Part shown: piece by piece, positions 2,920-60,022 of the stretch
Position numbering within the stretch: position 1 is the stretch's first letter
Layout: the number at the start of each line of letters is the position of its first letter
Assembly (NCBI GenBank): GCA_002841115.1
Contig: PHEC01000010.1
Coordinates: 1 to 63,180, forward strand
DNA from: Alphaproteobacteria bacterium HGW-Alphaproteobacteria-6
GTDB taxonomy: Bacteria > Pseudomonadota > Alphaproteobacteria > Rhodobacterales > Rhodobacteraceae
Length of the DNA stretch: 63,180 nt
Direction of reading: 5' to 3'
Notes under the pieces: model-generated
Database searches by the model: none
The model's input: only the letters and a program-made list of their open reading frames with translations
Told to the model about the DNA's origin: nothing
Translations under genes and position numbers: made by a program

Positions 2920-3594
2920 TCACGCCCGCAGGCCCGCCGCGGTAAAGCGCCCGGGAAAGAAGGCGGCGGCGCAGGTGTAGACGGTTCCAAGCGCCTCGTC
3001 GCGGCCGTAAGGCTTGGTCATCGTCATCAGGTCCAGCCAGACCCCCTCGATGGTGACCCGCAGCACCCGGGCGATCCGGGCCGGATCGCCGCTGCCGTCC
3101 CCGGCTGCGATCATCCGGGCGCAGATCGATTCCATCACCGCGATATAGGCCTCGTCGTTCGAGCCGCATTGTTCCTGATACATCGGCCGGCACTGCGCCT
3201 CGCCCCAGAAGGCGCACCAGGCCGACAGCCGCGACGGCGTGCAGATGGCCGGCTCGAAATCGGCACGCAGCATCGCGTCAAGCCGCGCCACCGGGTCCGG
3301 CCCCGCGGCCTCCAGCGCGCCGGTCCAGTTCAGCCGGTATTCCTCGGCCAGATAGAGCAGCGTCTCGGTCAGAAGCTTGTCCTTGGACTGGAAGTGGAAG
3401 TTCACCAGACCGTGCGACAGCCCGGCCATGCGCGCGACATCGGTCAGCGTGGTGCGGGCAAAGCCGCGCGCCGCTATCGTCTCGATCGTCGCCTCGATCA
3501 GTTGCTGGCGCCGCGCATCGCGGCCAAGCTTGCGCGGCGGCGGCGGGGCGTCCGGCGCGGCGGCATCTGGGGTCGGGTCGGGCGCGTCGGACAT
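2920..3594 (-). CDS. TetR-family regulator, BetI-like
   Basis: A 224-residue TetR-type regulator. After a proline-rich leader, residues of about 25-75 form the DNA-binding domain: RRQQLIEATIETIAARGFAR, then TTLTDVARMAGLSHGLVNFH with the recognition helix, then FQSKDKLL. The C-terminal half resembles BetI-type ligand domains (YRLNWTGALEAAG; SAWCAFWGEA). The start at 3594 (MSDAPDP) is preferred because GATGAGG lies upstream; an ATG at 3606 is the alternative. It is divergent from the operon beginning at 3786, with an 18-bp palindrome in the shared 190-bp region, so it most likely represses that operon and itself. BetI relatives respond to choline-like quaternary amines, which fits an onium-compound inducer, but the ligand is inference. 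Confidence 0.9.
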   Translation of the reverse strand: MSDAPDPTPDAAAPDAPPPPRKLGRDARRQQLIEATIETIAARGFARTTLTDVARMAGLSHGLVNFHFQSKDKLLTETLLYLAEEYRLNWTGALEAAGPDPVARLDAMLRADFEPAICTPSRLSAWCAFWGEAQCRPMYQEQCGSNDEAYIAVMESICARMIAAGDGSGDPARIARVLRVTIEGVWLDLMTMTKPYGRDEALGTVYTCAAAFFPGRFTAAGLRA

Positions 3595-3682: not shown

Positions 3683-3700
3683 ATTGACAGATCAGTCAAT
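3683..3700. promoter_or_regulatory. Palindromic operator in the TetR/operon divergent region
   Basis: ATTGACAGATCAGTCAAT is an 18-bp dyad with 6-bp arms ATTGAC/GTCAAT and a GATC centre. Size and symmetry fit TetR-family operators. It lies 83 bp before the aminotransferase ATG and about 90 bp before the regulator ATG. Confidence 0.7.
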
Positions 3701-3785: not shown

Positions 3786-5135
3786 ATGCGCCCGCTGCCC
3801 AGCCGGACCCTGACCCGATCCAACGCCCAGTATAAGCGGGCATTGAAGCGCCTGCCGCTGGGCGTCGCCTCGACCTTCCGCTACTGGGGCGATGACCGCA
3901 CGATCTACGCCAGCCATGGCAAGGGCGGGCGGATCTGGGACATCGACGACAACGGCTATGTCGATTACCGGCTTGGCTACGGGCCGGCGATCCTTGGCTA
4001 CGGCGACGACCGGGTCGATGCGGCGGCGCGGCGCGGGATCGAGGTCGGCGGCGTCTTCGCGCTGTCGACCGAACGCGAGTTGATCGTTGCCGACCGCATC
4101 GCCAAGATGGTGCCCGGCGTCGATCTGGTTCGCTTTTCCAACTCGGGGACCGAGGCGGTGATGGCCGCCCTGCGGCTGGCCCGCGCCCATACCGGGCGCG
4201 ACAGCTATCTGCTGATCGAAGGCGCCTATCACGGGCTTTTCGATGCGGCGATGTGGATGGCCAACCTCGAGGACTGGGACCAGAGCGCCAATCGCGACCC
4301 CGAGATCACCGCCTATTCGAAGGGCATCCCGCAGGAGTTGAAGACGCTGGCCCATCTGGTGCCGATGAATGACCTGCAAAGGCTGGAAGACACCTTTCGC
4401 CGCCACGGCGACACGATGGCGGCGATGCTGATCGAGCCGATCCAGGGCAATTGCTGCGGCATCGCCGCCTCGGTCGACTATGTCCGCCTGGCACGCGAGC
4501 TTTGCACCCGCTACGGGGTCTTGCTGATCATCGACGAGGTCAAGACCGGCTTTCGCGTCGCCAAGGGCGGGGTGCAGTCGCTTTACGGCGTCACCCCCGA
4601 CATCTCGACCTTCGCCAAGGCGGTGGCCAACGGCTATCCGATCGCCGTGGTCGCCGGGCGCGAGGGGGTGATGCGCACCTTCCGCTATGGCGGTGCGGCC
4701 CATGGCGGCACCTATACCGCCCATTCGGTCAGCCTTGCGGCGGCCGAGGAATGTCTGCGCATCCTTGACGAGACACCCGCGCTCCAGACCATCGCGACCT
4801 ATGGCGAGACGCTGAAAGCCGGCATATCGCGCATCCTCGAGCGGCGCGGGATCGTCCATTCCTATGCCGGACATGCCTCGATGTTCGGGCTGTTCTTTGC
4901 CGAGAAGGCGCCCGACAACTACCGCGACTGGAAGACCTCGGATTACAGTTTCTACGACCAGATGGCCTATTTCCTGCATGACCTCGGCATCATCGTCGAG
5001 CCCGACAGCCGCGAGCCCTGGTTCGTCTGCGAGGCGCACGGGCTTGACGCCACCTGCCTGAGCGACACGCTGAAGGCGGTGGAAACCGCCGTCGACCTGA
5101 CGCTTGAGCATTTCGAGGCCGAGAAACGGGCATGA
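3786..5135 (+). CDS. Class III PLP aminotransferase / glutamate-semialdehyde aminomutase-like
   Basis: First gene of the onium-compound-like operon, 449 residues. The fold-type I signature is clear: FSNSGTEAVMAALRLARAHT binds the PLP phosphate, LIIDEVKTGFRV carries the ring-binding Asp, and the Schiff-base Lys is in STFAKAVANGYPIAVVAG. It resembles GSA aminomutase-like aminotransferases, which often act on omega- or beta-amino acids, but the genomic context is not haem synthesis. It probably transaminates an amine intermediate made by the demethylating enzymes downstream. The ATG has GAAGGA upstream. Its stop overlaps the next start by 4 bp, implying translational coupling. Confidence 0.9.
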   Translation: MRPLPSRTLTRSNAQYKRALKRLPLGVASTFRYWGDDRTIYASHGKGGRIWDIDDNGYVDYRLGYGPAILGYGDDRVDAAARRGIEVGGVFALSTERELIVADRIAKMVPGVDLVRFSNSGTEAVMAALRLARAHTGRDSYLLIEGAYHGLFDAAMWMANLEDWDQSANRDPEITAYSKGIPQELKTLAHLVPMNDLQRLEDTFRRHGDTMAAMLIEPIQGNCCGIAASVDYVRLARELCTRYGVLLIIDEVKTGFRVAKGGVQSLYGVTPDISTFAKAVANGYPIAVVAGREGVMRTFRYGGAAHGGTYTAHSVSLAAAEECLRILDETPALQTIATYGETLKAGISRILERRGIVHSYAGHASMFGLFFAEKAPDNYRDWKTSDYSFYDQMAYFLHDLGIIVEPDSREPWFVCEAHGLDATCLSDTLKAVETAVDLTLEHFEAEKRA

Positions 5136-6745
5136 GCCTGGACGCGATCATCATCGGGGCCGGCCACAACGGGCTGGTGACCGCCTGCTACCTGGCCCGG
5201 GCCGGGATGAAGGTGGTGGTGGTCGAGAAGAACGACTGGATCGGCGGGGCGGCGGTGTCGCGATCATTGCATCCGGGCTTCACCTACTCCAACTGCTCCT
5301 ATGTCTCGTCGCTGTTTCGCCCCGAGATCATGCGCGATCTGGACTTGCCGCGCCACGGCCTGCAGATCCTGCCCTATGAGGGCGGCGCGGTCCTGACCCG
5401 CGACGGCGGCTATCTGGCGATGTTCCGCGACCATGACGCCAACCGCCGCGAATTTGCCCGCCGCAACCCGCGCGACGCCGAGGCCTATGACCGCTATGCC
5501 CGCGACGTGCTGCGTCACTGCCGCTTCATCCGCCCGCTTCTGATGCGCACCCCGCCCGATCCGTCGCGCTTTCGCCCGCGCGATCTGGCCGAACTGGCCT
5601 GGCTGGGCCGCAAGGTGATGGCGATGTCGGAAGAACAGATCGCCGCGATGGTGCGGTTCTGGACGATGTCGATCGCCGATTACCTCGACGAGTATTTCAC
5701 CGATCCGGTGATCAAGGCCTATCTTGCGGTCTCGGCGATCATCGGCACCGCCCTTGGGCCGATGTCGCCGGGCTCGGCCTATGTGCTCTTGCATCACTAC
5801 ATGGGCGATGTCGACGGCAATGTCGGCGCCTGGGGCTTTGCCCGGGGCGGCATGGGGTCGATCACCACCGCCCTGCACCGCTCGCTTCAAGCTGCCGGCG
5901 GCACGGTGCGCGCCGGCCGCGGGGTCGAGCGGATCCTGGTCGCCAACGGCCGCGCGGTCGGGGTCCGGCTGGAGGGGGGCGAGGAGGTTCGCGCCCGCCG
6001 CGTCATCTCGAACATGGATGTCAAGCGCACGCTTCTGACCCATGTCGAGGCTGCCGAACTGCCGGGCGATCTGCGTCGGCAGGTGGCGCGGTTCAAGACC
6101 CGGGGGTCGTCGGGCAAGGTCAATATCGCCCTTGACGGGCCGCCGCGCTTCACCGCCCTGCCCGAAGGGGCGCCGATGCTGAAGGGCGATCTGCACTTCA
6201 CCGATTCGATCGAGCGGATGGAGCGCGCCTATGACGACTGGAAATCCGGCCACTTCAGCCGCGACCCCTTCCAGGACATGATGATCCCGACGATGATCGA
6301 CCCGACGATGGCGCCGCCGGGCAAGCATTTCATGTCCTGCTTCGTGCAATATGCGCCGCCGAAGATCGCGGGCCGCGACTGGACCGACGCCGACCGCGAC
6401 GCCTTCGGCAAGACCGTGATCGACCAGATCGAGGCCCATGCCCCGGGCTTTCGCAACCTGATCCTGCACGCCGAGGTCCGCACCCCGCGCGAGCTTGAGG
6501 CCGAGGTCGGGCTGACCGACGGCAATATCTTTCAGGGTGAGCTGACCTTCGATCAGCTGCTCTTCAACCGGCCGCTGCCGGGCTATGCCCAGTATCGCAG
6601 CCCGATCCGCGACCTCTGGCTTTGCGGGTCCTCGACCCATCCGGGCGGCGGGGTGATGGGCGCGCCGGGGCGCAATGCCGCCGCCGAGATCCTGCGCGAG
6701 ATCCGCGCGCCGGCAACCATGGGCGATGCCTATGCCGTCCTCTGA
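5132..6745 (+). CDS. NAD(P)/FAD-dependent oxidoreductase, CrtI/phytoene-dehydrogenase-like (copy 1)
   Basis: A 537-residue flavoprotein. Residues of about 4-40 are a dinucleotide-binding fold (AIIIGAGHNGLVTACYLARA, then VVVVEKNDWIGGAA). The C-terminus has the second FAD motif around LWLCGSSTHPGGGVMGAPGR. The family includes carotenoid desaturases and amine oxidases. There are no carotenoid genes nearby, so an amine-oxidase or dehydrogenase role in the operon is more likely. It overlaps the aminotransferase stop by 4 bp and the next gene by about 14 bp. The next gene is a clear paralogue, so the two may form a heterodimer or act on successive intermediates. Confidence 0.9.
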   Translation: MSLDAIIIGAGHNGLVTACYLARAGMKVVVVEKNDWIGGAAVSRSLHPGFTYSNCSYVSSLFRPEIMRDLDLPRHGLQILPYEGGAVLTRDGGYLAMFRDHDANRREFARRNPRDAEAYDRYARDVLRHCRFIRPLLMRTPPDPSRFRPRDLAELAWLGRKVMAMSEEQIAAMVRFWTMSIADYLDEYFTDPVIKAYLAVSAIIGTALGPMSPGSAYVLLHHYMGDVDGNVGAWGFARGGMGSITTALHRSLQAAGGTVRAGRGVERILVANGRAVGVRLEGGEEVRARRVISNMDVKRTLLTHVEAAELPGDLRRQVARFKTRGSSGKVNIALDGPPRFTALPEGAPMLKGDLHFTDSIERMERAYDDWKSGHFSRDPFQDMMIPTMIDPTMAPPGKHFMSCFVQYAPPKIAGRDWTDADRDAFGKTVIDQIEAHAPGFRNLILHAEVRTPRELEAEVGLTDGNIFQGELTFDQLLFNRPLPGYAQYRSPIRDLWLCGSSTHPGGGVMGAPGRNAAAEILREIRAPATMGDAYAVL

Positions 6746-8291
6746 CGCGATCGTCATCGGCGGCGGGCCGAACGGCCTTGCCGCGGCGGCGCGGCTGGCC
6801 GCCTCGGGGCGGCGGGTGACGCTGTGCGAGGCCGGGGCGGTTGCGGGCGGCGGTGCGGTGACGGCGGAATTCGCGCCGGGCTACCGGGTGTCCGGCCTTG
6901 CGCATCTGCTTGGCCATCTCGATGCGCGGGTGATCGCCGGCATGGAGCTTGAGCGCCACGGCCTTGCCTTTGCCGCGACCGGGCTGGCAACCACGGCGGT
7001 TTCGGCCACCGGCGATCACCTCCGGCTGGAGGGGGCGGCGGGGGCGAGGCTGACCGGGCGGATCGCGCCCGAGGACGTGCTGGCCTGGGACCGGCTGCGC
7101 AGCCGGCTGATGGCCTTTGCCGCGGCGCTGGCGCCGATGCGGGCGATGGCGCCGCCGCGTCTGGCGCGCGGGGCGGCCAACGAGATGCTGCGGCTGGCGC
7201 GGGTCGGCCTTGGCCTGCGCCGCCTCGGCCGGGACGAGTTTCGCGAGTTTCTGCGGATGATCCTGATCAATGTCGCCGATGTCGCCGAGGACGAGCTGTC
7301 AGACGACCGCCTCGGCGGGCTTCTCGCTTTCGACGCGACGCTTGGCGCCTGGCTTGGCCCGCGTTCGCCGAACTCGCTGATCCTTTACCTCGACCGGCTG
7401 GCGGGCGGGATGGCGGGGCAACAGGCGGCGCTGGCCTTGCCGAAGGGCGGCATGGGCACGGTCGCCGCGGCGATGGCCCGCGGCGCCGAGGCGAAAGGCG
7501 TCGTGCTGCGGACCGGCGCCCGGGTCGCGCGCATCCTGGTCGAGGACGGCCGCGCCCTGGGCGTCGCCCTGGCGGACGGCGAGGAGATCCGCGCCGATCT
7601 GGTGGTCTCGGCGATCGGGCCGAAGGCGACGCTGGCCGGTCTGGTCGGGCCGCGCCACCTTGATACCGGCTTTCTGCGCCAGACCGCGGCAATCCGCGCC
7701 CGCGGCGGGGCGGCCAAGCTGCATCTGGCGCTGACCGGCCTGCCGGATTTCCGCGGCGCCGATCCGAAGACCCGGCTGGTCATCGCGCCCTCGGTCAACG
7801 CGGTCGAGGCCGCCTTCAACCCGGTCAAATACGGCGAGGTGCCGGACCGGCCGGTGATGGAGGCCATCCTGCCCTCGGCGCATGAGGACGGTTTCGCCCC
7901 GGGCGGCCATCACGTCCTGTCGGCGATCGTGCAGTTCGCCCCGCACGCGCCGAAGGACGGCGCCGATCAGGCACGCGCCCTGATGCTGGAACGCAGCCTT
8001 GCGGTGCTGGAGGATCACGCCCCCGGCCTCGGCGCGCTGATCGCCCATGCCGAGATGCTGATGCCCCAGGACATCGCGGCGCGCCACGGCATGGTGGGCG
8101 GCGCCTGGCACCATGCCGATCTGGCGGTCGAACAGATGCTGTTCCTGCGCCCCTTCGCCGCGGTCGCGCAATACCGCACCCCGGTTGCCGGGCTGTGGCT
8201 GGGCGGCGCGGGTTGCCATCCCGGCGGCCATGTCTCGGGGGCGGCGGGATGGAACGCCGCCGGCGCGATCCTGGCGGAGGGCGGCAGATGA
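6732..8291 (+). CDS. NAD(P)/FAD-dependent oxidoreductase, CrtI-like (copy 2)
   Basis: A 519-residue paralogue of the preceding gene, with the same architecture: IVIGGGPNGLAAAARLAASG at the N-terminus, LPKGGMGTVAAAMARGAEAK in the middle, and a C-terminal GLWLGGAGCHPGGHVSGAAG FAD loop. The start at 6732 puts the Rossmann motif directly at the N-terminus; ATG 6726 is equally possible, and both lie inside the end of copy 1. The stop overlaps the GcvT-like start as ATGA. A substrate cannot be named. The tandem pair suggests duplication and specialisation within this pathway rather than carotenoid synthesis. Confidence 0.88.
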   Translation: MPSSDAIVIGGGPNGLAAAARLAASGRRVTLCEAGAVAGGGAVTAEFAPGYRVSGLAHLLGHLDARVIAGMELERHGLAFAATGLATTAVSATGDHLRLEGAAGARLTGRIAPEDVLAWDRLRSRLMAFAAALAPMRAMAPPRLARGAANEMLRLARVGLGLRRLGRDEFREFLRMILINVADVAEDELSDDRLGGLLAFDATLGAWLGPRSPNSLILYLDRLAGGMAGQQAALALPKGGMGTVAAAMARGAEAKGVVLRTGARVARILVEDGRALGVALADGEEIRADLVVSAIGPKATLAGLVGPRHLDTGFLRQTAAIRARGGAAKLHLALTGLPDFRGADPKTRLVIAPSVNAVEAAFNPVKYGEVPDRPVMEAILPSAHEDGFAPGGHHVLSAIVQFAPHAPKDGADQARALMLERSLAVLEDHAPGLGALIAHAEMLMPQDIAARHGMVGGAWHHADLAVEQMLFLRPFAAVAQYRTPVAGLWLGGAGCHPGGHVSGAAGWNAAGAILAEGGR

Positions 8292-9484
8292 GCGATCCGC
8301 GCCTGCATTACCGCGCGCCCTTGCTGCGCACGCCCTTTCACCCCCGCATCGCCGAGGCCAACGTCCTGAACCAATGGGGCGCCTGGGCCGGTTATACCAC
8401 CGCCCTCGCCCTTCAGGACGAGGAGATGGAATATACCGCCATCCGCAATGGCGCGAGCCTTTATGACCTGTGCCCGATGGTGAAATACCGCATCATGGGG
8501 CCGCAGGCGGCAGAATATCTTGGCCGCCTGACCCTGCGTGACGTGGTCCGCCAGCCGGTGGGCACGGTGCGCTATACCGCCTGGTGCGACGATGCCGGCA
8601 AGGTTCTTGACGATGGCACGCTGTTTCGTCTGGCCGAGGCGGAGTTCATGCTGTGCTGTCAGGAACGCCACCTGCCCTGGCTTCTCGATGCCGCCAGCGG
8701 CTTTGATGTTGCCATCGCCGAGATCACCGAGGCGGTCGCGGCGCTGTCGCTGCAAGGGCCGTGCAGCGCCTCGGTGCTGCGCGCGGCGGGGCTTGACGTC
8801 TCGGCGCTGAAGCCCTTCGCCGTCACCCGGCAGGAGTTCGCCGGCACCACGCTGACCCTCTCGCGCACCGGCTTTACCGGCGATCTCGGCTATGAGCTCT
8901 GGCTGGCGCCCGAGGCGGCGCTGCCGCTCTGGGACGGGCTGATGGCGGCGGGGGCGCCCTGGGGCATCCGCCCGATCGGCTCGAACGCACTGAACCTCGC
9001 GCGGATCGAGGCCGGGTTCATCATCGCCAATGCCGATTTCGTGCCCGCCGAACAGGCGCTGCGCGAGGATCGCCCGCGCTCGCCCTTCGAGATCGGGCTG
9101 GACTGGATGATCGACTGGCAGAAGGGCCATTTCAACGGCCGCCGCGCGCTTCTGGCCGAGCGGGACGGCCAGACCTCGCGCTGGGCGCTGGTCGCGCTCG
9201 ATATCGAGGGTAACGTGCCGGCCGAGGGCGCCCTGCTTTACCACGGCAAGACGCGCGAGGTCGGCCACATCACCGCCGCCGCCTGGTCGCCGGCGACCAA
9301 GCGCAACGTGGCCTTGGCCTCGCTGCGCCGGCCCTGGGACCGGACCGCGGCGGATGACCTCTGGGCCGAGGTCTATGCGCTGCGCGAGTTGCACTACGTC
9401 AAGCTGATGCTGCGGGCGCGGATCACCGAACGGCCGTTCTTTGCCCCCGCCCGCCGCCGCGCCACCCCGCCCGAGGACTTCTGA
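8288..9484 (+). CDS. GcvT/DmdA-like folate-dependent aminomethyltransferase (demethylase)
   Basis: A 398-residue member of the glycine-cleavage T protein family. It keeps the characteristic blocks ASLYDLCPMVKYRIMGPQA, FTGDLGYELWL and the C-terminal barrel, and covers the normal length of the family. GcvT relatives move a methyl or methylene group from an N- or S-methylated substrate to tetrahydrofolate: GcvT itself, sarcosine and dimethylglycine enzymes, and DmdA, which demethylates DMSP. Here it sits between FAD oxidoreductases and Rieske oxygenases, which argues for a demethylation step. The start overlaps the previous stop as ATGA. 5-formyl-THF cyclo-ligase at 17733-18416 may support the folate pool. 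Whether the substrate is N- or S-methylated is not visible. Confidence 0.88.
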   Translation: MSDPRLHYRAPLLRTPFHPRIAEANVLNQWGAWAGYTTALALQDEEMEYTAIRNGASLYDLCPMVKYRIMGPQAAEYLGRLTLRDVVRQPVGTVRYTAWCDDAGKVLDDGTLFRLAEAEFMLCCQERHLPWLLDAASGFDVAIAEITEAVAALSLQGPCSASVLRAAGLDVSALKPFAVTRQEFAGTTLTLSRTGFTGDLGYELWLAPEAALPLWDGLMAAGAPWGIRPIGSNALNLARIEAGFIIANADFVPAEQALREDRPRSPFEIGLDWMIDWQKGHFNGRRALLAERDGQTSRWALVALDIEGNVPAEGALLYHGKTREVGHITAAAWSPATKRNVALASLRRPWDRTAADDLWAEVYALRELHYVKLMLRARITERPFFAPARRRATPPEDF

Positions 9485-9511
9485 ACGCCGCGATTTCCGA
9501 AAGCAAAGGCC

Positions 9512-10666
9512 ATGACCCATCACCGCCACGCGGACTCGCCGCTGCTCGATCACTGCCCCGAAACCCTGCCGGCGCGGGCCTACAGCGATCCGGACTGGTT
9601 CGCGCGCGAGCGGCGCGCGATCTGGGCGCGCGAATGGGTCCTTGCCGGGCGGCTGGGCGATCTGGCGCCGGGCAGCATGCGGCGCGTCGAGGTGGCCGGG
9701 CAGGCGCTGATCCTGTGCCGCGACGGCGAGGGCCGCGTCACCGCCTTTCACAACACCTGCCGCCACCGCGGGGCAGAGCTGTGCGCGGCCGCCGAACAAC
9801 CGCTTGGCCGGCTGATCCGCTGCCCCTATCACGCCTGGGCTTACGGCACCGACGGCCGGCTGGTGTCGGTTGCCCATGCCACGCCGACGGCGGATTTCGA
9901 CGCGCGCGATCACGGGCTTTTCCCGGTCCATGTCCGGCACTGGAACGGCTTTGTGTTCCTTTGCCTTGCCGATGACCCGGCCGAGTTTCGCCCCGACCTC
10001 GGGCTTGAGGCGCTGGCGAACTGGCCGATGGACGATCTGGTGACCGGCCATGTGATGGAAACCGACATCGCCTGCAACTGGAAGATCTTCTGGGAAAACT
10101 ACAACGAATGCCTGCATTGTCCGGGCATCCATCCCGAACTCTGCGACATGGTGCCGGTCTACCGCCAAGGCATCATGGCGGCGAACGAGGCGCCGGGCTG
10201 GACGCCCGACACCCCCGCAGCACCGGTCTTGCGGCCGGGCGCGCGCAGCTGGACGATGACCGGCGCGCCGGCCGGGCCGGAGTTTTCCGGGCTGAGTGCT
10301 GCCGAGCGCGCCGCCGGCTTCACCTTCGTCACGCTTTATCCCACGGCCTATATCGTCGCCCATGTCGATCACGTCCGCGCCGTCAGCCTGACGCCGCTCG
10401 GGCCCGAACGGACCCGGCTGCGCGCCGAATGGCTGTTCTTGCCCGAGACCCTGGCGCAGCCCGGCTTTGACCTCGCCCATGTCACCGACTTCGCCAGCAT
10501 CGTGATGAGCCAGGACGCCGCGGCCTGCGAGATGAACCAGCGCGGCCTGCGCTCGGACCGCTACCGGGCCGGCCGGCTGATGCCGCAGGAATTCGACATC
10601 CACCGCTTTCACCAGTGGCTGCTGTCACGGTTGGAGGCCGCCGAACCGGAGGGCCGCCATGACTAG
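9512..10666 (+). CDS. Rieske non-haem iron oxygenase alpha subunit (copy 1)
   Basis: A 384-residue oxygenase of the aromatic-ring-hydroxylating / GbcA-CntA-like type. The Rieske [2Fe-2S] ligands are in CRHRGAELC and CPYHAWAYG (C-x-H...C-x2-H). The mononuclear Fe(II) site is in the segment NECLHCPGIHPEL (E-x2-H-x4-H), with the carboxylate ligand probably in SQDAAACEMNQ. Relatives remove N-methyl groups oxidatively from glycine betaine, carnitine or stachydrine, as well as hydroxylating rings. It overlaps the second Rieske gene by 8 bp. No ferredoxin or reductase partner gene lies in the operon, so electrons must come from elsewhere. Confidence 0.92.
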   Translation: MTHHRHADSPLLDHCPETLPARAYSDPDWFARERRAIWAREWVLAGRLGDLAPGSMRRVEVAGQALILCRDGEGRVTAFHNTCRHRGAELCAAAEQPLGRLIRCPYHAWAYGTDGRLVSVAHATPTADFDARDHGLFPVHVRHWNGFVFLCLADDPAEFRPDLGLEALANWPMDDLVTGHVMETDIACNWKIFWENYNECLHCPGIHPELCDMVPVYRQGIMAANEAPGWTPDTPAAPVLRPGARSWTMTGAPAGPEFSGLSAAERAAGFTFVTLYPTAYIVAHVDHVRAVSLTPLGPERTRLRAEWLFLPETLAQPGFDLAHVTDFASIVMSQDAAACEMNQRGLRSDRYRAGRLMPQEFDIHRFHQWLLSRLEAAEPEGRHD

Positions 10667-11879
10667 CTCGCTTGCCGCCTCTGCCACCCCGGTTCCGGCG
10701 GGCTGGGACCGCCGCGGCCTGCCCGGCTGGTGCTATCACTCGCGCGCGCTTTTCGATCTGGAACGCGAGGCGCTGTTTCTGACCCATTGGCAGATCGTCG
10801 GCCATGTCGCCGACCTGCCGGCGCCGGGCGACTGGCTGTCCTTCGATCTGCTCGGCGAACGCGCGGTGGTGATGCGCGGCCAGGACGGGATCTTGCGCGC
10901 CTTTCACAACCTGTGCCGGCACCGGGGCGCGCGGGTGGTCGATGGCGCCTCGGGCCATTGCAAGGGCGCCATCGTCTGCCCGTTCCATGGCTGGGTCTAC
11001 AACCTTGACGGCAGCTTGCGCGGCCCCGCCCGGCCCGAAAGCTTCGGCGCCATGGAGCGCGGCGATTTCGGCCTGAAGAAGATCGAGATGGAGGTCTGGC
11101 AGGGCTTCGTCTTCCTGCGCTTCCATCCCGGCCCGCAACCGGCCGTGGCCGACTGGCTGGCCCCTTACGGCCCCGATTTCGACGCCTACCGGGCGGCCGG
11201 CCTGCTGCCCGCGCAGCGGCCGGACTGGGCCACCGAACTGCCGGTCAACTGGAAGTCGGTGCGCGATGTCGACAACGAGGGCTATCATGTCGCGATGGCC
11301 CATCCGGCGTTGCAGGACCTATACGGGCGCAGCTACCGCGACCTGGTCTATCCCGGCGGCCTGTCGCATTCGATCGCCGAGTTCGGCGATCAGCCGGGGC
11401 GGCGCTGGTCGGTGCGCCGCTATCTTTCGCTGGCACCGGTGCAGGACTGGCTGCCCGACCGGCTGCGTCGGTCCTGGACCTATTACGGGGTCTTCCCGAA
11501 CGCGGTGATCGCCTTCACCCCGGAAGGCGCGCAATTCTATCAGGATCTGCCGGTCACGCCCGGCCTGACCCGGCTGACCGGCCGGCTTTACCGGCGCGCC
11601 GACGAGACCCGCGCGATGCGGGCGGCGCGCTATCTGGCAATGCGGATCGACCGCGAGACCTCGGCCGAGGACCGGCAGCTTTCGATCTGGTCGAACGAAT
11701 CGATGAAATCGGCGGCCTTCGACGATTTCCACCTTTCGGATCTCGAATACGGGGTGCGGGCCCATCATGACCAGCTGCGCCGCCTGATCCCGGTGACCCG
11801 CCTGCCCGCGGCCCCGCCAGAGGGCCGCATCAAGGCGGTGAACGAAGAATTGCTTCGCACATCGGGAAATAATTCCTAA
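10659..11879 (+). CDS. Rieske non-haem iron oxygenase alpha subunit (copy 2)
   Basis: A 406-residue second oxygenase, clearly diverged from copy 1. The Rieske cluster ligands are in NLCRHRGARVV and CPFHGWVYNLDG, and the iron-site helix is DVDNEGYHVAMAHPAL. The C-terminal region ends at LLRTSGNNS. Having two separate alpha subunits suggests two oxidative demethylation or hydroxylation steps, or two alternative substrates. It overlaps copy 1 and is followed after 33 bp by the transporter genes with their own strong GGAGGAG ribosome site. Confidence 0.92.
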   Translation: MTSSLAASATPVPAGWDRRGLPGWCYHSRALFDLEREALFLTHWQIVGHVADLPAPGDWLSFDLLGERAVVMRGQDGILRAFHNLCRHRGARVVDGASGHCKGAIVCPFHGWVYNLDGSLRGPARPESFGAMERGDFGLKKIEMEVWQGFVFLRFHPGPQPAVADWLAPYGPDFDAYRAAGLLPAQRPDWATELPVNWKSVRDVDNEGYHVAMAHPALQDLYGRSYRDLVYPGGLSHSIAEFGDQPGRRWSVRRYLSLAPVQDWLPDRLRRSWTYYGVFPNAVIAFTPEGAQFYQDLPVTPGLTRLTGRLYRRADETRAMRAARYLAMRIDRETSAEDRQLSIWSNESMKSAAFDDFHLSDLEYGVRAHHDQLRRLIPVTRLPAAPPEGRIKAVNEELLRTSGNNS

Positions 11880-11912
11880 GCTGGCGGAAAAATCCAACGG
11901 AGGAGACGCGAC

Positions 11913-13016
11913 ATGACCCTTCTGACCCGTCGATCGACGCTGACCGCCATCGGCGGCGCGCTGGCCATTCCCTATGTCCGCCCGTCCTGGGCGCAGGCCG
12001 GCACCGTCAATGTCTACAACTGGTCCGATTACATCGGCGAGACGACGCTGGCCGATTTCGAGGCCGCGACCGGGATCGGTGTCGTCTATGACACCTATAC
12101 CTCGGCCGAGGAGATGCAGGCCAAGATGCTGGCCGGCTCGACCGGCTACGACCTGGTCGACCACGCCGGACTTGACCTGCCGCGCGCCATCGCCGCCGGC
12201 ATCTATCACCCGCTCGACCGCGCCAAGCTGCCGGGCTGGAAGAACCTCGACCCCGAGATCATGCGCATCCTTGCCGGCTGGGACCCGGACAACCGCTACG
12301 GCGTGCCCTACATGTGGGGATCGGTCGGCTTCACCTACAACGTCGACCTGGTGGAAGAACGCATCCCGGGCGCCGACATGACCTCGATGGATCTGATCTT
12401 CAAGCCGGAGAATGCCGCGAAACTGGCCGATTGCGGGATCTCGATCCTCGACAGCCCGACCGACATCATGCTGATGGTGCTGAAATACCTCGGCCTTGAC
12501 GGCGACACCACCAATCTGGACGACTACCAGAAGGTGGTCGAGGCGTTCAAACCGATCCGCCCCTATATCCGCACCTTCGACAATGCCAATTACCTCAACG
12601 CCATCCCCAATGGCGAATTGTGCGCGATCAACAGTTGGTCGGGCGATTACGCCACCGCCGCGACCCGCGCCGCCGAGGCCGGGATCGAGATGAACCTGGC
12701 CTATTTCGTGCCGACCACCGGGGCGCCGGCCTGGGTCGACACGATGTGCATCCCGATCGATGCGCCGAACCGCGACAATGCCTACCGCTTCCTCGATTTC
12801 CTGCTGCAGCCCGAGGTGATCGCCGGCTGCACCAACTACACCTGGTATGCCAATGCCAATATCCCGGCGCGCGAATTCATCGACCCCGAGATCCTCGCCG
12901 ACCCGGCGGTCTATCCCGACGAAGAGACGATCGCGCGGATGTGGGCGCCCAAGCCCTTCAGCGAGGAACAGGACCGCGCGATCAACCGCGCCTGGCAGGA
13001 GATCAAGTCGGGTTGA
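11913..13016 (+). CDS. Polyamine/onium-type ABC transporter substrate-binding protein (PotD-like)
   Basis: A 367-residue periplasmic binding protein. The N-terminus has a Tat-like signal, TRRSTLTAIGGALAIPYVRP, with cleavage probably after WAQA. The mature protein begins GTVNVYNWSDYIGETTLADF, the hallmark of PotD/PotF spermidine/putrescine-binding proteins. Members of this family bind small cationic amines, so a quaternary amine or sulfonium ligand would be consistent. A strong GGAGGAG ribosome site precedes the ATG. It is followed by ATPase and two permease genes, giving a complete importer. Confidence 0.93.
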   Translation: MTLLTRRSTLTAIGGALAIPYVRPSWAQAGTVNVYNWSDYIGETTLADFEAATGIGVVYDTYTSAEEMQAKMLAGSTGYDLVDHAGLDLPRAIAAGIYHPLDRAKLPGWKNLDPEIMRILAGWDPDNRYGVPYMWGSVGFTYNVDLVEERIPGADMTSMDLIFKPENAAKLADCGISILDSPTDIMLMVLKYLGLDGDTTNLDDYQKVVEAFKPIRPYIRTFDNANYLNAIPNGELCAINSWSGDYATAATRAAEAGIEMNLAYFVPTTGAPAWVDTMCIPIDAPNRDNAYRFLDFLLQPEVIAGCTNYTWYANANIPAREFIDPEILADPAVYPDEETIARMWAPKPFSEEQDRAINRAWQEIKSG

Positions 13017-13042
13017 CGGCCAGCGGTTCGGGTGCCCCTGAC

Positions 13043-14221
13043 ATGACCGGGACCGAGGCCGGAATCCCCGCCCCCGCCGCCAGCGTTGCGGCCTTTGCCC
13101 GCCCGGCACCACCGCTGCCGGGCGCCAAGGTGCCGCCCTTCATCCGGATCAAAGGCGTCACCAAGCGCTTCGGCACCTTCACCGCCGTCGATGGCGTCAG
13201 CCTCGACATCCTCAAGGGCGAGATCTTCTCGCTGCTCGGCGGATCGGGTTGCGGCAAGACCACGCTTTTACGGATGCTCGCCGGTTTCGAGGCGCCGAGC
13301 GAGGGTCGCATCTTCATCGACGGCCAGGACATGACCGACCTGCCACCCTACGAGCGGCCGGTGAACATGATGTTCCAGAGCTATGCGTTGTTCCCGCACA
13401 TGAGCGTGGAACGCAACATCGGCTACGGCCTGAAGCACGAGGACATGACGGCCAGCCAGCGCCGCGACCGGGTGCGCGAGATGCTCGACCTGGTGCAACT
13501 GACCGAGTTCTCGCACCGCAAGCCGCACCAGATCTCGGGCGGTCAGCGTCAGCGCGTGGCGCTGGCACGCAGCCTGGCCAAGCAGCCGAAACTGCTTTTG
13601 CTCGACGAGCCCTTGGCAGCACTCGACAAGAAGCTGCGCGAGCATACCCAGTTCGAGCTGATGGACATCCAGGACAAGACCGGCACCACCTTCATCGTCG
13701 TCACCCATGACCAGGAAGAGGCGATGACGCTGTCGTCGCGGCTGGCGGTGATGGACAAGGGCCGGATCATGCAGATCGGCACCGCGACCGAGGTCTACGA
13801 ATACCCCGCCTCGCGCTTCGTCGCCGGCTTCATCGGCTCTGTCAATGCCTTCGAGGGGACGGTTCGCGGCGTCTCCGGCGATCTGGCCGAAATCGCGGTG
13901 CCCGAGCTTGGCGGCGCGGTGACGGCGCGGGCGGTCCCCGGCCTTGGCCCCGGTCAGCCGATCGCGCTGGCGGTGCGGCCGGAAAAGATCGCCCTGTCGC
14001 GCAGCCGTCCCGAAGGGGTGAACGTGATTGCCGGCACGGTCCGCGACCTTGCCTATTTCGGCAAGGATTCGCTTTACCGCATAGCCCTGCCGTCGGGGCG
14101 CGTCCTGTCGGTGAACTCGGTCAACGCCCGCCGGCACGGCGAGCACGAGCGGGTGGCGGACTGGGAGGATGCGGTCTGGCTGTCCTTCGATCCGGCCGCC
14201 GCCATCCTGCTGAAGGACTAG
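13043..14221 (+). CDS. ABC transporter ATP-binding protein (PotA-like)
   Basis: A 392-residue importer ATPase. After a proline/alanine-rich leader of about 37 residues come Walker A GGSGCGKTTLLRMLAG, Q-loop MFQSYALFPH, signature ISGGQRQRVALARSLA, Walker B LLLLDEPLAALD and H-loop VVTHDQEEAM. A C-terminal TOBE domain follows. The start at 13043 is the first good ATG after the binding-protein stop; an internal start nearer KVPPFIRIKG cannot be excluded. It energises import through the two permeases encoded directly downstream. Confidence 0.93.
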   Translation: MTGTEAGIPAPAASVAAFARPAPPLPGAKVPPFIRIKGVTKRFGTFTAVDGVSLDILKGEIFSLLGGSGCGKTTLLRMLAGFEAPSEGRIFIDGQDMTDLPPYERPVNMMFQSYALFPHMSVERNIGYGLKHEDMTASQRRDRVREMLDLVQLTEFSHRKPHQISGGQRQRVALARSLAKQPKLLLLDEPLAALDKKLREHTQFELMDIQDKTGTTFIVVTHDQEEAMTLSSRLAVMDKGRIMQIGTATEVYEYPASRFVAGFIGSVNAFEGTVRGVSGDLAEIAVPELGGAVTARAVPGLGPGQPIALAVRPEKIALSRSRPEGVNVIAGTVRDLAYFGKDSLYRIALPSGRVLSVNSVNARRHGEHERVADWEDAVWLSFDPAAAILLKD

Positions 14222-14224
14222 GCG

Positions 14225-15166
14225 ATGGCGGCGGCTCATCATGACGGAAGATGGGCGCGCTGGTTCAACCGCTCGGGCTGGATCCGGATCACCATCGGCG
14301 CGCCCTATCTGTGGCTGATCCTGTTCTTCCTGCTGCCCTTCGTCATCGTCATGGCGATGAGCTTCGCCACCCGCACCCCGACCGCGCCGCCCTTCTCCTT
14401 CGGCGGCGAGCATCCGCTGCTGAACACCGAGCATTACGCGAGGCTGGTGCAGGATGACCTCTACATCCGCGCCTATCTGAATTCGATCCTCAACGCGGCG
14501 GCGGCGACCGTCCTGTGCCTCTTGATCGGCTATCCGATGGCGCTGGGCCTGACCCGGGTCGGCCGGGCCTGGCGCAATGTGCTCTTGATGCTGGTGATCC
14601 TGCCGTTCTGGACCTCGTTCCTCTTGCGCGTCTATGCCTGGATGGGGCTGATGGGATCGAACAGCTGGTTCAACAAGCTTCTGACCGCCGGCTGGAACCT
14701 GGTGGTGCCGGCCGACTGGGCGCTGCGCTCGATCCCGATGATGAACAGCGGTTTCGCGGTGGCGCTGGTCACGGTCTATTCCTACCTGCCCTTCATGATC
14801 CTGCCGCTTTACGCGACGCTGGAAAAGCTGGACCTGACGCTGAACGAGGCGGCGATGGACCTTGGATCAAAGCCCTTCGCGGTCTTTCGCGACGTGACGC
14901 TGCCCCTGTCGGTGCCGGGCATCATCGCCGGCAGCCTGCTGGTCTTCATCCCGGCCTCGGGAGAGCTGATCATCCCCTCGCTGGTCGGTTCCTCCGCCCG
15001 CCCGATGATCGGCCGCGTCATCTCGGACGAATTCGCAAGTGCCCGCGACTGGCCGATGGCCTCGGCGGTGGCGGTGGCGCTTTTGCTGCTCTTGGTCGTG
15101 CCGATGATGGTCTACACCCATTTCGAGGGCAAATCGCACGCCCGGGCCGAGGGGGGCGGGCGATGA
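14225..15166 (+). CDS. ABC transporter permease (PotB-like)
   Basis: A 313-residue inner-membrane protein with about six hydrophobic segments, starting with PYLWLILFFLLPFVIVMAMS. The coupling-helix EAA motif is NEAAMDLGSKPFAVFRDVTL-PLSVPGI, as in PotB. It starts 4 bp after the ATPase stop and overlaps the second permease start by 4 bp, so the transporter subunits are translationally coupled. Confidence 0.93.
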   Translation: MAAAHHDGRWARWFNRSGWIRITIGAPYLWLILFFLLPFVIVMAMSFATRTPTAPPFSFGGEHPLLNTEHYARLVQDDLYIRAYLNSILNAAAATVLCLLIGYPMALGLTRVGRAWRNVLLMLVILPFWTSFLLRVYAWMGLMGSNSWFNKLLTAGWNLVVPADWALRSIPMMNSGFAVALVTVYSYLPFMILPLYATLEKLDLTLNEAAMDLGSKPFAVFRDVTLPLSVPGIIAGSLLVFIPASGELIIPSLVGSSARPMIGRVISDEFASARDWPMASAVAVALLLLLVVPMMVYTHFEGKSHARAEGGGR

Positions 15167-16002
15167 ACCGCCGCCCGGTCTTCCTGATCACCATGCTCGC
15201 TTTCGGCTTTGCCTTCTTCTACATCCCGATCCTGTCGATGATGGTCTATTCCTTCAACGCCTCGCGGCTGGCGACGGTCTGGGGCGGGTTTTCGACCAAG
15301 TGGTATGTCTCGCTTCTGTCGAACCGGCAGGTGCTGACGGCCGCGGTGCTGTCGATCAAGATCGCGCTGCTGAGTGCCACCTTCGCCACCATCCTCGGCA
15401 CCATGGCCGGGATCGCGCTGGCGCGGTTCAGGCGGTTTCGCGGGCGAACGGTGTTTTCCGGCCTGGTCACCGCGCCCCTGGTGATGCCCGAGGTGATCAC
15501 CGGCATCGCCTCCCTGATGCTCTTCATCCTGATGGCCGAATGGATCGGCTGGCCGGCGCAACGCGGCTTCACCACGGTGACGCTGGCGCATATCACCTTC
15601 TCCATGGTCTTCGTCACCACCATCGTCCATTCGCGCCTGGTGCAGGCCGATGCGGCGATCGAGGAGGCGGCGATGGACCTCGGCTCGCGGCCCTGGCAGG
15701 TGATGCGCGACATCACCCTGCCGGTGATCGCGCCGGCGATCCTGTCGGGCTGGCTGCTGGCTTTCACCATCTCGCTTGACGATGTGGTGATCACCAATTT
15801 CACCACCGGTCCGGGAACCACGACCCTGCCGATCCTGATCTGGTCGAAGGTCAAGCTTGGCGTGACGCCGGATATCAACGCGCTGGCGACGATCACCGTG
15901 CTGATCGTCGGCTTTGGCGTGGCGATCGCCGGCTGGCTGTTGAACCGGGCCGAGAAGCGGCGCGAAGCGGATGCGCACCTGGCTTATCAGGAGAACCGAT
16001 GA
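15163..16002 (+). CDS. ABC transporter permease (PotC-like)
   Basis: A 279-residue second permease with about six membrane segments. The first is FLITMLAFGFAFFYIPILSM, and the EAA motif is EEAAMDLGSRPWQVMRDITL followed by PVIAPAI. The segment FTISLDDVVITNFTTGPGTT is typical of PotC. The start at 15163 sits in an ATGA overlap with the first permease, and its own stop overlaps the cupin gene in the same way. Confidence 0.93.
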   Translation: MNRRPVFLITMLAFGFAFFYIPILSMMVYSFNASRLATVWGGFSTKWYVSLLSNRQVLTAAVLSIKIALLSATFATILGTMAGIALARFRRFRGRTVFSGLVTAPLVMPEVITGIASLMLFILMAEWIGWPAQRGFTTVTLAHITFSMVFVTTIVHSRLVQADAAIEEAAMDLGSRPWQVMRDITLPVIAPAILSGWLLAFTISLDDVVITNFTTGPGTTTLPILIWSKVKLGVTPDINALATITVLIVGFGVAIAGWLLNRAEKRREADAHLAYQENR

Positions 16003-16895
16003 CCGACGATCAGCCCGAGGATCAGCGCGCGCGCCTTGATCTGGCGACCCCGCCCGGGGTGCCGGGATCGGGCCGGCTGCGCTACGCGGCGGCGATGCAG
16101 CTGAACCGCTGCGGCCTTCTTGGCGACGAGGCGCTGGAAGTTTACCGCATCTGCGCGCCGCTCGACGCCGAGGATCCCTTGGCGCTTCTGGCTGCGCGCG
16201 GGCTGGACGGGGAGGCGCCGGCCCGGTCGGCGCCGGCGCCGGCGCCGGCGCTGCTGCTCGGCCGTCTTGTCGATGCGGCCGACCGCTATCTGGCCGGGCT
16301 TTGCGGCCCGGGCATCGCCGAGGTTCGCGCCCTGATCGGGCGCTGGCGCGGCGGGCCGGTCACCGCCCGGCCCGGGGCCGCGCATCCGGTGGTCGCCGCC
16401 CATCTCGGCCCGGCGCTGGAAGCCCTGGGCGCGACCCATCCCGACCTCGCCGCGGCGATCAAAGCCGCGGCGCCGCACCTCGACTGGGTCGGTTATGATC
16501 TTTACCCGCCGGAAGAGATCGGCCCGGGTTTCGCCACCGGCCATGCCTTTGCCTCGCTGATCGGCGAGGAGGCCGCGATCGCGGCCGAGGATTTCGACCT
16601 CGGGCTGTTCCTGATCGCGCCCGATGTGCTTTACCGCGACCATTGCCATCCGGCGCCCGAGCTTTACGCGCCGCTGACCGGGCCGCATGGCTGGCGTTTC
16701 GGCACCGCCGCGCCGCTGACGGTGCTGCCGGCGCATCATCCGGTCTGGAACCCGCCGGGCGCGGTTCACCTGACCAAGGTCGGGCCGCTGCCCTTTCTCT
16801 GTCTTTTCGCCTGGACCCGCGACGTGTCGCGGCCGGCGCGGGTGGTGCCGGCCGCGGACTGGGCCGAGCTGGAGCGTTTCAGGATCGGGGGCTGA
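15999..16895 (+). CDS. DMSP-lyase-like cupin (DddL/DddQ family)
   Basis: A 298-residue protein whose C-terminal half is a cupin. The metal-binding segment is YRDHCHPAPELY (Tyr212, His215, His217, Glu221, Tyr223), followed by WRFGTAAP and PVWNPPGAVH, which supplies a third His at 257. This spacing matches DMSP lyases of the DddQ/DddL type, which cleave DMSP to dimethyl sulfide and acrylate using a catalytic Tyr and a divalent metal. The helical N-terminal half also fits that family. Its position in an operon with a GcvT-like demethylase and an onium-type importer supports an onium or related substrate, but DMSP itself is not proven. A GCCGGC repeat run at about 16227-16250 encodes an Ala-Pro stretch. 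ATGA overlap with the permease. Confidence 0.8.
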   Translation: MTDDQPEDQRARLDLATPPGVPGSGRLRYAAAMQLNRCGLLGDEALEVYRICAPLDAEDPLALLAARGLDGEAPARSAPAPAPALLLGRLVDAADRYLAGLCGPGIAEVRALIGRWRGGPVTARPGAAHPVVAAHLGPALEALGATHPDLAAAIKAAAPHLDWVGYDLYPPEEIGPGFATGHAFASLIGEEAAIAAEDFDLGLFLIAPDVLYRDHCHPAPELYAPLTGPHGWRFGTAAPLTVLPAHHPVWNPPGAVHLTKVGPLPFLCLFAWTRDVSRPARVVPAADWAELERFRIGG

Positions 16896-16898
16896 GCC

Positions 16899-17690
16899 AT
16901 GGAGCCGGTGGCGGGCGAGCATTATCACGGCCGGATGATCGGGATGCTCGAGGCGATCTGGGGCGAGGGCTTCCTGTCGCCGGGCGGGCGCGATGAGGTG
17001 GCGCGCCTGGTTGCCGGCAGCGACAGCGACCTTGCCGGCCGGTCGGTTCTGGATATCGGCTGCGGTGCGGGCGGCATCGACATCGCACTGGTACAGGACC
17101 ATGCGGCGGGCTTTGTCTGCGGCATCGATGTCGAGGATACCGTCCTGGCCCGCGCCCGGGCGCTTGTCGCCCGCGCCGGGCTTGGCGACCGGATCGGCTG
17201 CATCAAGGTCGTGCCCGGGCCGCTGCCCTTTCCGCCAGGCTGTTTCGACATCGTCTTTTCCAAGGATTCGATCGTCCACATTCCCGACAAGGCGGCGCTG
17301 ATGGCCGAGGTCTTCCGGGTGCTGAGGCCCGGCGGCCGCCTGGTCGCCTCGGACTGGCTGATCGGCCATGACCGGGTGCCTTCGGCGGCGATGGCGGAGT
17401 ATATCGCCGCCGAGGGGCTTGATTTCGGCATGGCCTCGCCGGCGCGCTACCGCGCGGCGATGGAGCGTGCCGGGTTCGAGGCGATCGTGCTTGCCAGCCG
17501 CAACGCCTGGTACCGCGACGCGGCGCGGATCGAGCTGGCGCGGCTGGAAGGCCCGGTCGGCGAGGCGGCGGCGAAAATCGTCGGCCGCGACTTTGTCGAG
17601 GAGAACATCGGCATCTGGCGACGGATGATCCCGGTCCTCGACAGCGGCGAGCATTGCCCGACCCATCTGAGCGCGCGAAAACCCGGCTGA
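16899..17690 (+). CDS. SAM-dependent methyltransferase, PEAMT-like
   Basis: A 263-residue class I methyltransferase and last gene of the operon, 3 bp after the cupin gene. Motif I is VLDIGCGAGGIDIALVQ, followed by the acidic GIDVEDTV and the post-I segment FDIVFSKDSIVHIPDK. The leading segment AIWGEGFLSPGG resembles phosphoethanolamine and glycine-type N-methyltransferases (xxGxGFxSxGG). A methyltransferase inside a demethylation operon is surprising. It could remethylate an intermediate, act on a thiol or amine product, or make the substrate under other conditions. Substrate unknown. Confidence 0.88.
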   Translation: MEPVAGEHYHGRMIGMLEAIWGEGFLSPGGRDEVARLVAGSDSDLAGRSVLDIGCGAGGIDIALVQDHAAGFVCGIDVEDTVLARARALVARAGLGDRIGCIKVVPGPLPFPPGCFDIVFSKDSIVHIPDKAALMAEVFRVLRPGGRLVASDWLIGHDRVPSAAMAEYIAAEGLDFGMASPARYRAAMERAGFEAIVLASRNAWYRDAARIELARLEGPVGEAAAKIVGRDFVEENIGIWRRMIPVLDSGEHCPTHLSARKPG

Positions 17691-46102: not shown

Positions 46103-46105
46103 CGC

Positions 46106-47560: not shown

Positions 47561-47588
47561 GGTTCAGCCTCCGTTGCCGGGCGCGCCG

Positions 47589-48896: not shown

Positions 48897-48954
48897 GGGT
48901 GCCGCCTTTCTGCTGCTGCGTCCGTCGATTTCCCGGACCATGCAGCGCGGCGCC

Positions 48955-48969
48955 TTAAGATCGGCCTAA
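48955..48969 (-). promoter_or_regulatory. CtrA-like binding site upstream of flgE
   Basis: On the minus strand TTAG-GCCGATC-TTAA, one mismatch from the CtrA consensus TTAA-N7-TTAA, in the motB-flgE gap. The same TTAG-N7-TTAA form occurs before motB. Confidence 0.65.
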
Positions 48970-49010
48970 CGGATAAAATCCGGCGGATTTCGCCAGCCCG
49001 GCGGCGTGCC

Positions 49011-60017: not shown

Positions 60018-60022
60018 ACCCC

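Follow-up and report, generated by a model that had tools for sequence, protein, structure and literature searches.

Methylated amines make up a notable share of the dissolved organic nitrogen from algae and plants, and routes are, to our knowledge, known for only a few of them. In the glycine betaine route (GbcAB) a Rieske enzyme takes the first methyl group, and a flavoprotein and a folate protein take the rest. The homarine operon homABCDER is a Rhodobacterales operon for an N-methylated compound. The locus described here lies in the first 63,180 nucleotides (the window) of contig PHEC01000010.1 of Alphaproteobacteria bacterium HGW-Alphaproteobacteria-6 and consists of 12 plus-strand genes at 3786-17690, in near-continuous overlap and divergent from a BetI-like TetR gene. 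We read it, with a probability of about 0.5, as a substrate-induced catabolic operon for a cationic N-methylated amine, probably one that includes a quaternary ammonium group. No description of the operon was found in the open-licence PMC literature, which leaves subscription papers aside.

Several described systems resemble the locus in part. The glycine betaine route follows the same logic, but it uses another flavoprotein family, the match to the GbcA model reaches only 184 of 670 bits, and an importer and an aminotransferase are added here. CntA (group Va, PDB: 6y9d) shares six residues with Rieske 1 and is the nearest fold to Rieske 2, but in Rieske 2 neither the tyrosine nor the cysteine pair is present, and no CntB-type reductase was found in the cluster. 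The stachydrine demethylase Stc2, which N-demethylates a quaternary amine, ranks in the top three PDB matches to Rieske 1, but has Asn at CntA position 203, where Rieske 1 has its cation-π Tyr; we know of no PotF importer, CrtI-like pair or cupin in the Stc pathway. The trimethylamine N-oxide (TMAO) demethylase Tdm is similar in its GcvT part, but its cut-off of 1100 is not reached and its N-terminal part is absent here. PotFGHI and Puu/Spu polyamine catabolism have the same importer type, binding protein and class III aminotransferase; the operon differs in an exchange of Glu185 for Asp, in its coupling to Rieske oxygenases and in standing beside a separate canonical PotF. The dimethylsulphoniopropionate (DMSP) lyase DddQ shares its cupin fold and six residues with the operon's cupin, which has an extra N-terminal domain and no DMSP pathway context. 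We have not seen the combination of a CrtI-like flavoprotein pair with GcvT described for N-demethylation. The features of the locus are as follows (aa, amino acids; ABC, ATP-binding cassette; SAM, S-adenosylmethionine).

2920..3594, minus strand: BetI-like TetR regulator, 224 aa (TetR_N and TetR_C_6 above Pfam cut-offs)
3684..3699, no strand: operator-like palindrome TTGACAGATCAGTCAA between regulator and operon (TGAC-N6-GTCA)
3786..5135, plus strand: class III aminotransferase, GntE/HemL-like, 449 aa (Aminotran_3, 203 bits)
5132..6745, plus strand: CrtI/CrtO-like flavoprotein 1, 537 aa (Amino_oxidase, NAD_binding_8)
6732..8291, plus strand: CrtI/CrtO-like flavoprotein 2, 519 aa (Amino_oxidase)
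8288..9484, plus strand: GcvT/T-protein-like, presumed tetrahydrofolate-dependent demethylase, 398 aa (GCV_T, 188 bits)
9512..10666, plus strand: Rieske oxygenase 1, group V (quaternary ammonium) signature, 384 aa (Ring_hydroxyl_A and Rieske)
10659..11879, plus strand: Rieske oxygenase 2, core enzyme, 406 aa (Ring_hydroxyl_A and Rieske)
11913..13016, plus strand: PotF-like periplasmic binding protein, 367 aa (SBP; PotF structures)
13043..14221, plus strand: ABC importer ATPase, PotG/PotA-like, 392 aa (ABC ATPase motifs in the translation; annotation of an orthologous locus)
14225..15166, plus strand: ABC importer permease, PotH/PotB-like, 313 aa (translation; annotation of an orthologous locus)
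15163..16002, plus strand: ABC importer permease, PotI/PotC-like, 279 aa (translation; annotation of an orthologous locus)
15999..16229, plus strand: cupin gene, N-terminal helical domain of about 77 aa with the motif GSGR-RY-AAM ... LEVYR (no Pfam match)
16230..16895, plus strand: cupin gene, DddQ-type DMSP-lyase-like cupin domain, border approximate (PF16867, 68.6 bits)
16899..17690, plus strand: SAM-dependent methyltransferase, 263 aa (Methyltransf_11, 66 bits)

The gene borders of the operon range from a 14 bp overlap to a 33 bp gap: in gene order, the first six are a 4 bp overlap, a 14 bp overlap, a 4 bp overlap, a 27 bp gap, an 8 bp overlap and a 33 bp gap, and the seventh to eleventh are gaps of 26 and 3 bp, two overlaps of 4 bp and a gap of 3 bp. 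A reading made earlier from the letters and open reading frames (the sequence-only reading) had described this 12-gene block and its divergent BetI-like gene; all the genes are in place, and its family assignments agree with hmmscan for the ten of the 13 proteins scanned. The ATPase and both permeases rest on their translations and on the annotation of an orthologous plasmid locus, and have orthologues in related loci. Among the matches listed for the ten scanned proteins (the best 25 a protein at most) no NCBIfam cut-off is reached, so the operon enzymes are related to the named enzymes but do not belong among them.

Because the same genes in the same order recur across many named genomes, the operon is more than a chance assembly. 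Strong cupin orthologues (full cupin at E ≤ 1e-80) occur in seven of 149 genomes of the same family, the genome under study included, by a criterion that overlooks bearers whose cupin half is lost (L050, L052). Three of the other six bearers hold all 13 genes (L042, L046, L047); L044 has all but the methyltransferase, its contig ending there, L045 only the regulator, both Rieske genes, importer and cupin, and L043 a split version of the cluster. On the contig that carries L043 and L091, the flavoprotein-GcvT set adjoins an MttB-like methyltransferase and an operon-type SAM methyltransferase and stands apart from Rieske 1, Rieske 2 and the cupin, as a split version of the pathway. A Rieske 2 profile scan of a named species collection matched 498 stretches, 463 of them relatives, and the best 80 were kept. 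All 13 genes are present in 17 of these 80 loci and all except the methyltransferase in nine more (at least 45% identity), the rest being shorter variants or broken contigs; the counts refer to loci, not independent genomes, and include duplicates (e.g. L052/L105, L050/L122, L044/L087). Most hosts belong to the Rhodobacteraceae/Paracoccaceae (Defluviimonas, Tabrizicola, Frigidibacter, Gemmobacter, Cypionkella, Pseudorhodobacter) and some to the Rhizobiales (Aestuariivirga and bins); Fuscovulum ytuae carries the operon on a plasmid. The distribution is patchy, a congener (G010) having only a weak cupin match. A block not conserved even in close relatives had been set beforehand as one finding that would refute the sequence-only reading; the block is kept in relatives, with an operator of its own.

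That operator lies between the operon and the regulator, which scores 98.8 bits with the BetI NCBIfam model (cut-off 201) and has the BetI-type C-terminal TetR_C_6 domain above its Pfam cut-off. A regulator orthologue (at least 50% identity) is found in 62/80 related loci. The palindrome TGAC-N6-GTCA is present in 49 of 58 orthologous regulator-operon intergenic regions (the window's own included, a few contigs counted twice), against 0.18 expected from mononucleotide shuffles. The genome under study has one exact copy of the extended pattern, at the operon, and one site with two mismatches elsewhere. Ten further genomes were chosen, eight with the cluster and two controls without a strong cupin match; the pattern is present in seven, at the operon every time, and was not found in the other three, namely both controls and G129, which has a split cluster. 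Two extra one-mismatch sites in G121, one inside an unrelated gene and one just before another, were judged to be chance, given their unrelated surroundings. The recurrence of the palindrome in the intergenic regions, with a single exact copy in its own genome, makes it very probable that the BetI-like regulator acts locally and is dedicated to this operon.

The evidence for a quaternary ammonium group comes from Rieske 1. Its PDB matches are the uncharacterized 3n0q (4e-48), Stc2 (6e-48) and CntA (2e-30), and its residues Y197, E199, C200, H202, C203 and H207, which align to Y203, E205, C206, H208, C209 and H213 of CntA, are invariant in 63/63 orthologues (some genomes counted twice). They include the marks of group V: the bridging glutamate E199, the Cys-X-X-Cys pair C200/C203 and the aromatic Y197 of group Va. 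According to two reports (PMC7948474, PMC10952381), Y203 of CntA makes the cation-π contact to the quaternary ammonium and E205 is the bridging residue; the Cys pair occurs in some enzymes of group V, and Stc2 and GbcA are without the aromatic residue. By these marks the assignment of Rieske 1 as a quaternary-ammonium-type oxygenase is supported. The methylated onium compound of the sequence-only reading can accordingly be narrowed: the quaternary ammonium part agrees with the Rieske 1 signature, and the sulphonium (DMSP) part was given up in view of the polyamine-type binding protein and of the GcvT-like protein, which scores 112 bits with DmdA (NCBIfam cut-off 410).

The binding protein scores 347 bits with the PotF model and 161 with PotD (the PotF NCBIfam cut-off of 636 is not reached) and matches PotF structures at E 6e-99 to 1e-96; the polyamine-type ABC importer predicted earlier thus stands, as PotFGHI-like rather than PotDABC-like. 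We take W244, W276 and Y314 and the acidic positions 185, 247 and 278, in PotF numbering, to be the amine-binding positions of PotF. Among 86 sequences whose best match is this binding protein, counted without an identity floor, each of the three aromatic residues is kept in 86/86, D247 in 80 and D278 in 81, so that the site is PotF-like; Glu185 is replaced by Asp in all 86. The shorter side chain of Asp may leave room for a methylated ammonium. A separate canonical PotF with Glu185 is encoded with an ATPase elsewhere in the genome and matches PotF at 49%, vs 43% for the operon protein.

Flavoprotein 1 scores 300 of 1000 bits with the CrtO model, and in related loci flavoprotein 2 usually lies directly 3' of it. 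Next to distant Rieske 2 clusters (L160, L161, L162, L218, L219 and partly L223 and L224) the flavoprotein-GcvT set is found again, arranged in different gene orders. Other demethylation genes adjoin some clusters: histamine/trimethylamine-dehydrogenase-like genes, a fusion of a flavin adenine dinucleotide (FAD) domain with GcvT, and MttB-like genes. The GCV_T score of the GcvT-like protein (188 bits, cut-off 25.6) places it in the T-protein/GcvT superfamily; its best NCBIfam match (230 bits) is to TMAO demethylase, in the GcvT part, and its Asp pair D108-D109 is conserved in 48/48. Among the seven GcvT paralogues of the genome, the probable true GcvT (L002) has both Asp residues, and the second Asp is present in six of the seven.

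The aminotransferase is nearest to the guanitoxin enzyme GntE (420 bits, NCBIfam cut-off 525), and seven loci hold a GntI-like kinase (139 of 357 bits). A guanitoxin link was rejected on these scores and kept as a chemical analogy only, because the matching proteins all belong to broad families. The same matches are part of the case for a larger N-methylated compound, such as an alkaloid, an aromatic or a guanidino amine, whose ring would be opened or hydroxylated by Rieske 2 and whose product would be cleaved by an amidohydrolase. An Amidohydro_3 amidohydrolase is indeed present in 35 of the 92 loci clustered, and among 30 sister loci (described below) histamine/trimethylamine-dehydrogenase-like genes occur in four and monoamine-oxidase-like genes in three. 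We consider this quite unlikely, however, as the folds nearest to Rieske 2 are aliphatic quaternary-ammonium enzymes, and the GntE and GntI matches lie below cut-offs of models that sit in broad families.

The cupin domain scores 68.6 bits with PF16867 (DMSP_lyase, cut-off 27), and its AlphaFold2 (AF2) model, with a predicted local distance difference test (pLDDT) score of 95.7, has the DddQ fold: the top Foldseek matches are the DddQ structures 4b29, 5cu1 and 4la2 (target template modelling (TM) scores 0.72-0.80). The residues reported to be essential in DddQ (Y120, H123, H125, E129, Y131 and H163; PMC4437653) are all kept, as Y212, H215, H217, E221, Y223 and H257; H217 and Y223 are invariant in 39 aligned sequences and the other four at least 90% conserved. 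These residues and this fold favour a pathway for DMSP or another sulphonium, with GcvT as DmdA and the cupin as DMSP lyase, which is nevertheless highly improbable: it was rejected on the GcvT score and the PotF-like importer, an aminotransferase and amine-type Rieske enzymes are needless for DMSP, and some clusters keep the small N-terminal domain where the cupin half is missing (L122, L105, L067, L080, L095 and others). Many of the bearer genera, moreover, are presumably freshwater or soil organisms, which also counts against DMSP.

This small domain of about 77 residues has no Pfam match up to E 1, and a PDB profile search gave chance matches only. In other clusters (L161 and L218 among them) it is an independent open reading frame of 62-87 aa beside PotC, Rieske 2 or GcvT, and its motif occurs once each in 88 of 163 loci. 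A profile search of 385 class genomes found it in its own genome only; the search was not exhaustive, since the domain was later read by eye in L218. Our guess is that it partners either Rieske 2 or the demethylase set.

From these relationships we infer the substrate class, the chemistry and order of the steps and the induction as follows. The PotF-like binding protein and ABC importer would take up the cation. Rieske 1 would oxidize an N-methyl group of the quaternary ammonium with release of formaldehyde, the two CrtI-like flavoproteins would dehydrogenate the remaining N-methyl groups, and tetrahydrofolate would receive the one-carbon unit from the GcvT-like protein. The freed primary amine would then be removed by the class III aminotransferase, giving an aldehyde. 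The carbon skeleton would fall to Rieske 2, with the small domain as its partner, and to the DddQ-like cupin; in many relatives the Amidohydro_3 amidohydrolase would take part as well. On binding the substrate or a derivative, the BetI-like repressor would let go of the operon. The import of a cationic amine and its stepwise demethylation, oxidation and transamination, as first proposed, are supported.

The presence and absence of genes was compared in the 62 intact loci with a regulator among the best 80 (18 were set aside). The binding protein is present in 60, PotC in 57, the cupin gene in 54, Rieske 1 in 48, the aminotransferase in 34, the flavoprotein-GcvT set in 32 and the methyltransferase in 20; the amidohydrolase (F0) is present in 26, a small ChrR-type cupin (F1) in 17 and the FAD-GcvT fusion in four. 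Rieske 1, absent from 14 loci, accompanies the flavoprotein-GcvT set in 31/32 (the exception is L078), the aminotransferase in 33/34 and the methyltransferase in 20/20. F1 never occurs with the flavoprotein set in these loci (0/32); L076 and L132, set aside for want of a regulator, hold both. Fisher tests for these pairs give p = 3e-3 to 3e-9, uncorrected for relatedness. On a tree of 52 intact Rieske 2 rows (15 of 67, from broken contigs, were dropped), the flavoprotein set needs 10 changes, four of them forced by well-supported branches, and Rieske 1 needs four. These patterns fit a layered build in which a core pathway, formed by the importer, Rieske 2 and the cupin, is joined first by Rieske 1 and after it by the flavoproteins/GcvT, the aminotransferase and the methyltransferase. 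Displacement of the flavoprotein set by the FAD-GcvT fusion is not claimed, as one of the four intact loci with the fusion also has the set.

Several findings weigh against the reading proposed here. Rieske 1, the flavoprotein-GcvT set and the aminotransferase are all missing from 13 of the 62 loci, the majority of which still hold the importer, Rieske 2 and the cupin; the core chemistry may therefore do without a methylated substrate. Two of the 13 (L103, L133) have an FAD-GcvT fusion gene on the regulator's other side. The layering statistics ignore the relatedness of the loci, and the pairs with the F0 amidohydrolase are not significant (Fisher p 0.07 to 0.77). The methyltransferase is odd within a demethylation pathway; besides its constant company with Rieske 1, orthologues of 55-56% identity adjoin distant Rieske 2 genes in four of the 30 sister loci. 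In Rieske 2 the bridging Glu and the two His (E207, H210, H215) are retained in 89/89 sequences, but D205, G208 and V211 stand at the group V aromatic and Cys-pair positions, likewise in 89/89. In favour of the reading, it matches CntA at 6e-34, and CntA (target TM 0.76), then Stc2, are nearest in Foldseek to its model, which has a mean pLDDT of 81.9 and values under 50 at residues 210-215, near the iron; we do not file Rieske 2 under group V, although its nearest fold is CntA. Finally, the cluster has no Rieske reductase gene, and a search for the PF00970 family in this genome and six others gave none that clearly fits. The genome, which is 87% complete, has four PF00970 proteins, one of which has the right build and sits, by eye, among phenylacetyl-coenzyme A (CoA) oxygenase genes; the near-complete, operon-bearing genomes G034 and G093 have two each, none with a Fer2 domain, and G104 has a DmmA-like reductase with Fer2. 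The PF00970 matches of G121, G077 and G010 were outside this comparison.

The wider family of Rieske 2 loci was surveyed in 30 distant or sister loci with Rieske 2 at about 46-59% identity, some on short contigs; G531, G532 and G605 (of 20 matching genomes) and G672 (of seven) are outside the table, and below 46% L179 alone was viewed. The PotB-like permease is found in 30, PotC in 28, PotA in 27, the binding protein in 23, a class III aminotransferase of another type (AT36) in 20, flavoproteins 1 and 2 in seven each and GcvT in eight. A GntE-like aminotransferase and Rieske 1 are absent from all 30, L162 holding a 27% match to Rieske 1. Down to about 46% identity, what these loci share is an importer of the PotFGHI type together with a Rieske oxygenase and, mostly, an aminotransferase, and therefore an amine pathway; we infer that the window operon is an elaborated version aimed at a methylated amine. 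L179, left out of the table, is without an importer; its Rieske relative, at 41%, lies among genes of the acyl-CoA type.

These loci also bear on ordinary polyamine or diamine catabolism, in which importer and Rieske 2 would oxidize an unmethylated polyamine, the aminotransferase would deaminate it and the demethylation genes would be side branches for methylated analogues. The importer and AT36 counts and the PotF-like character of the binding protein agree with this, as do the scores of the six AT36 proteins scanned, each above the PRK07036 cut-off. In seven sister loci, all of one family (f109), agmatinase, DAO-type oxidase and PRK07480-type aminotransferase genes adjoin, with a glutamine-synthetase-like gene in five. 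Because polyamine genes adjoin 7/30 loci and 13/62 relatives are core-only, a polyamine, whether ordinary or methylated, has to be taken seriously as a rival, if a rather unlikely one: against ordinary polyamines stand the quaternary-ammonium signature of Rieske 1 in 63/63, the canonical PotF importer already in the genome, Asp for Glu185 in 86/86 and the restriction of the polyamine-gene neighbourhood to f109. The Rieske 2-PotABC clusters with these neighbours (L178, L205-L210) are possibly a Rieske-dependent polyamine route of small-genome Alphaproteobacteria. SAR11 uses polyamines via PotD and multifunctional enzymes, in a report whose main text did not yield the word 'oxygenase' (PMC8437039).

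In L212, an enolase-superfamily, a threonine-aldolase-like and, by eye, a PrpD-like gene at 10914-14524 run directly into Rieske 2 in the same direction, and similar gene lengths are seen in L213-L215 and L217 (unscanned). With 417 bits the threonine aldolase is above the cut-off of the GntG family model (230), but it also passes the low-specificity threonine aldolase model; by analogy with carnitine biosynthesis, the gene set suggests β-hydroxylation followed by aldol cleavage. The window has an enolase-superfamily gene (by eye) at 41578-42834 (plus strand), 24 kb from the operon, whose start resembles that of the L212 gene. Elsewhere in the window, flagellar genes (FlgI-, FlgL-, FlgK-, FlgE- and MotB-like by eye) occupy 43977-49889 (minus strand), and G+C falls to 0.53 at 60001-62000, vs about 0.68 in the remainder.

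A more specific form of the methylated-amine reading, and a long shot, is that the operon would be the first bacterial route recognized for a trimethylated diamine- or lysine-type cation, the candidates being trimethyllysine and methylated polyamines of the kind found in diatoms; the flavoproteins and GcvT would form a folate-linked N-methyl-lysine or amine demethylase, a counterpart of PYROXD2, and the small domain would be a new Rieske or demethylase partner. Human PYROXD2 is presumably CrtI-like, and we know of no reaction assigned to it. No PYROXD2 sequence turned up in the searches made here, none of which was aimed at the closest clade of flavoprotein 1. In a plasma-metabolome study the strongest association of all was that of the PYROXD2 gene with dimethyllysine, and the gene had another with N6-methyllysine (PMC9730628).

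The operon is real and conserved and very probably self-regulated, and as a predicted variant of amine uptake and oxidative N-demethylation it is well supported in the amine and the demethylation. The module is widespread, its substrate class can be tested, and it brings to light a small putative partner domain that has no Pfam entry. A DddQ-like enzyme outside a DMSP context calls for caution when DMSP lyases are annotated. Identification of the operon's compound would name a new nutrient pathway. The flavoproteins would also be a tractable model for human PYROXD2, provided that they demethylate amines of the N-methyl-lysine type.

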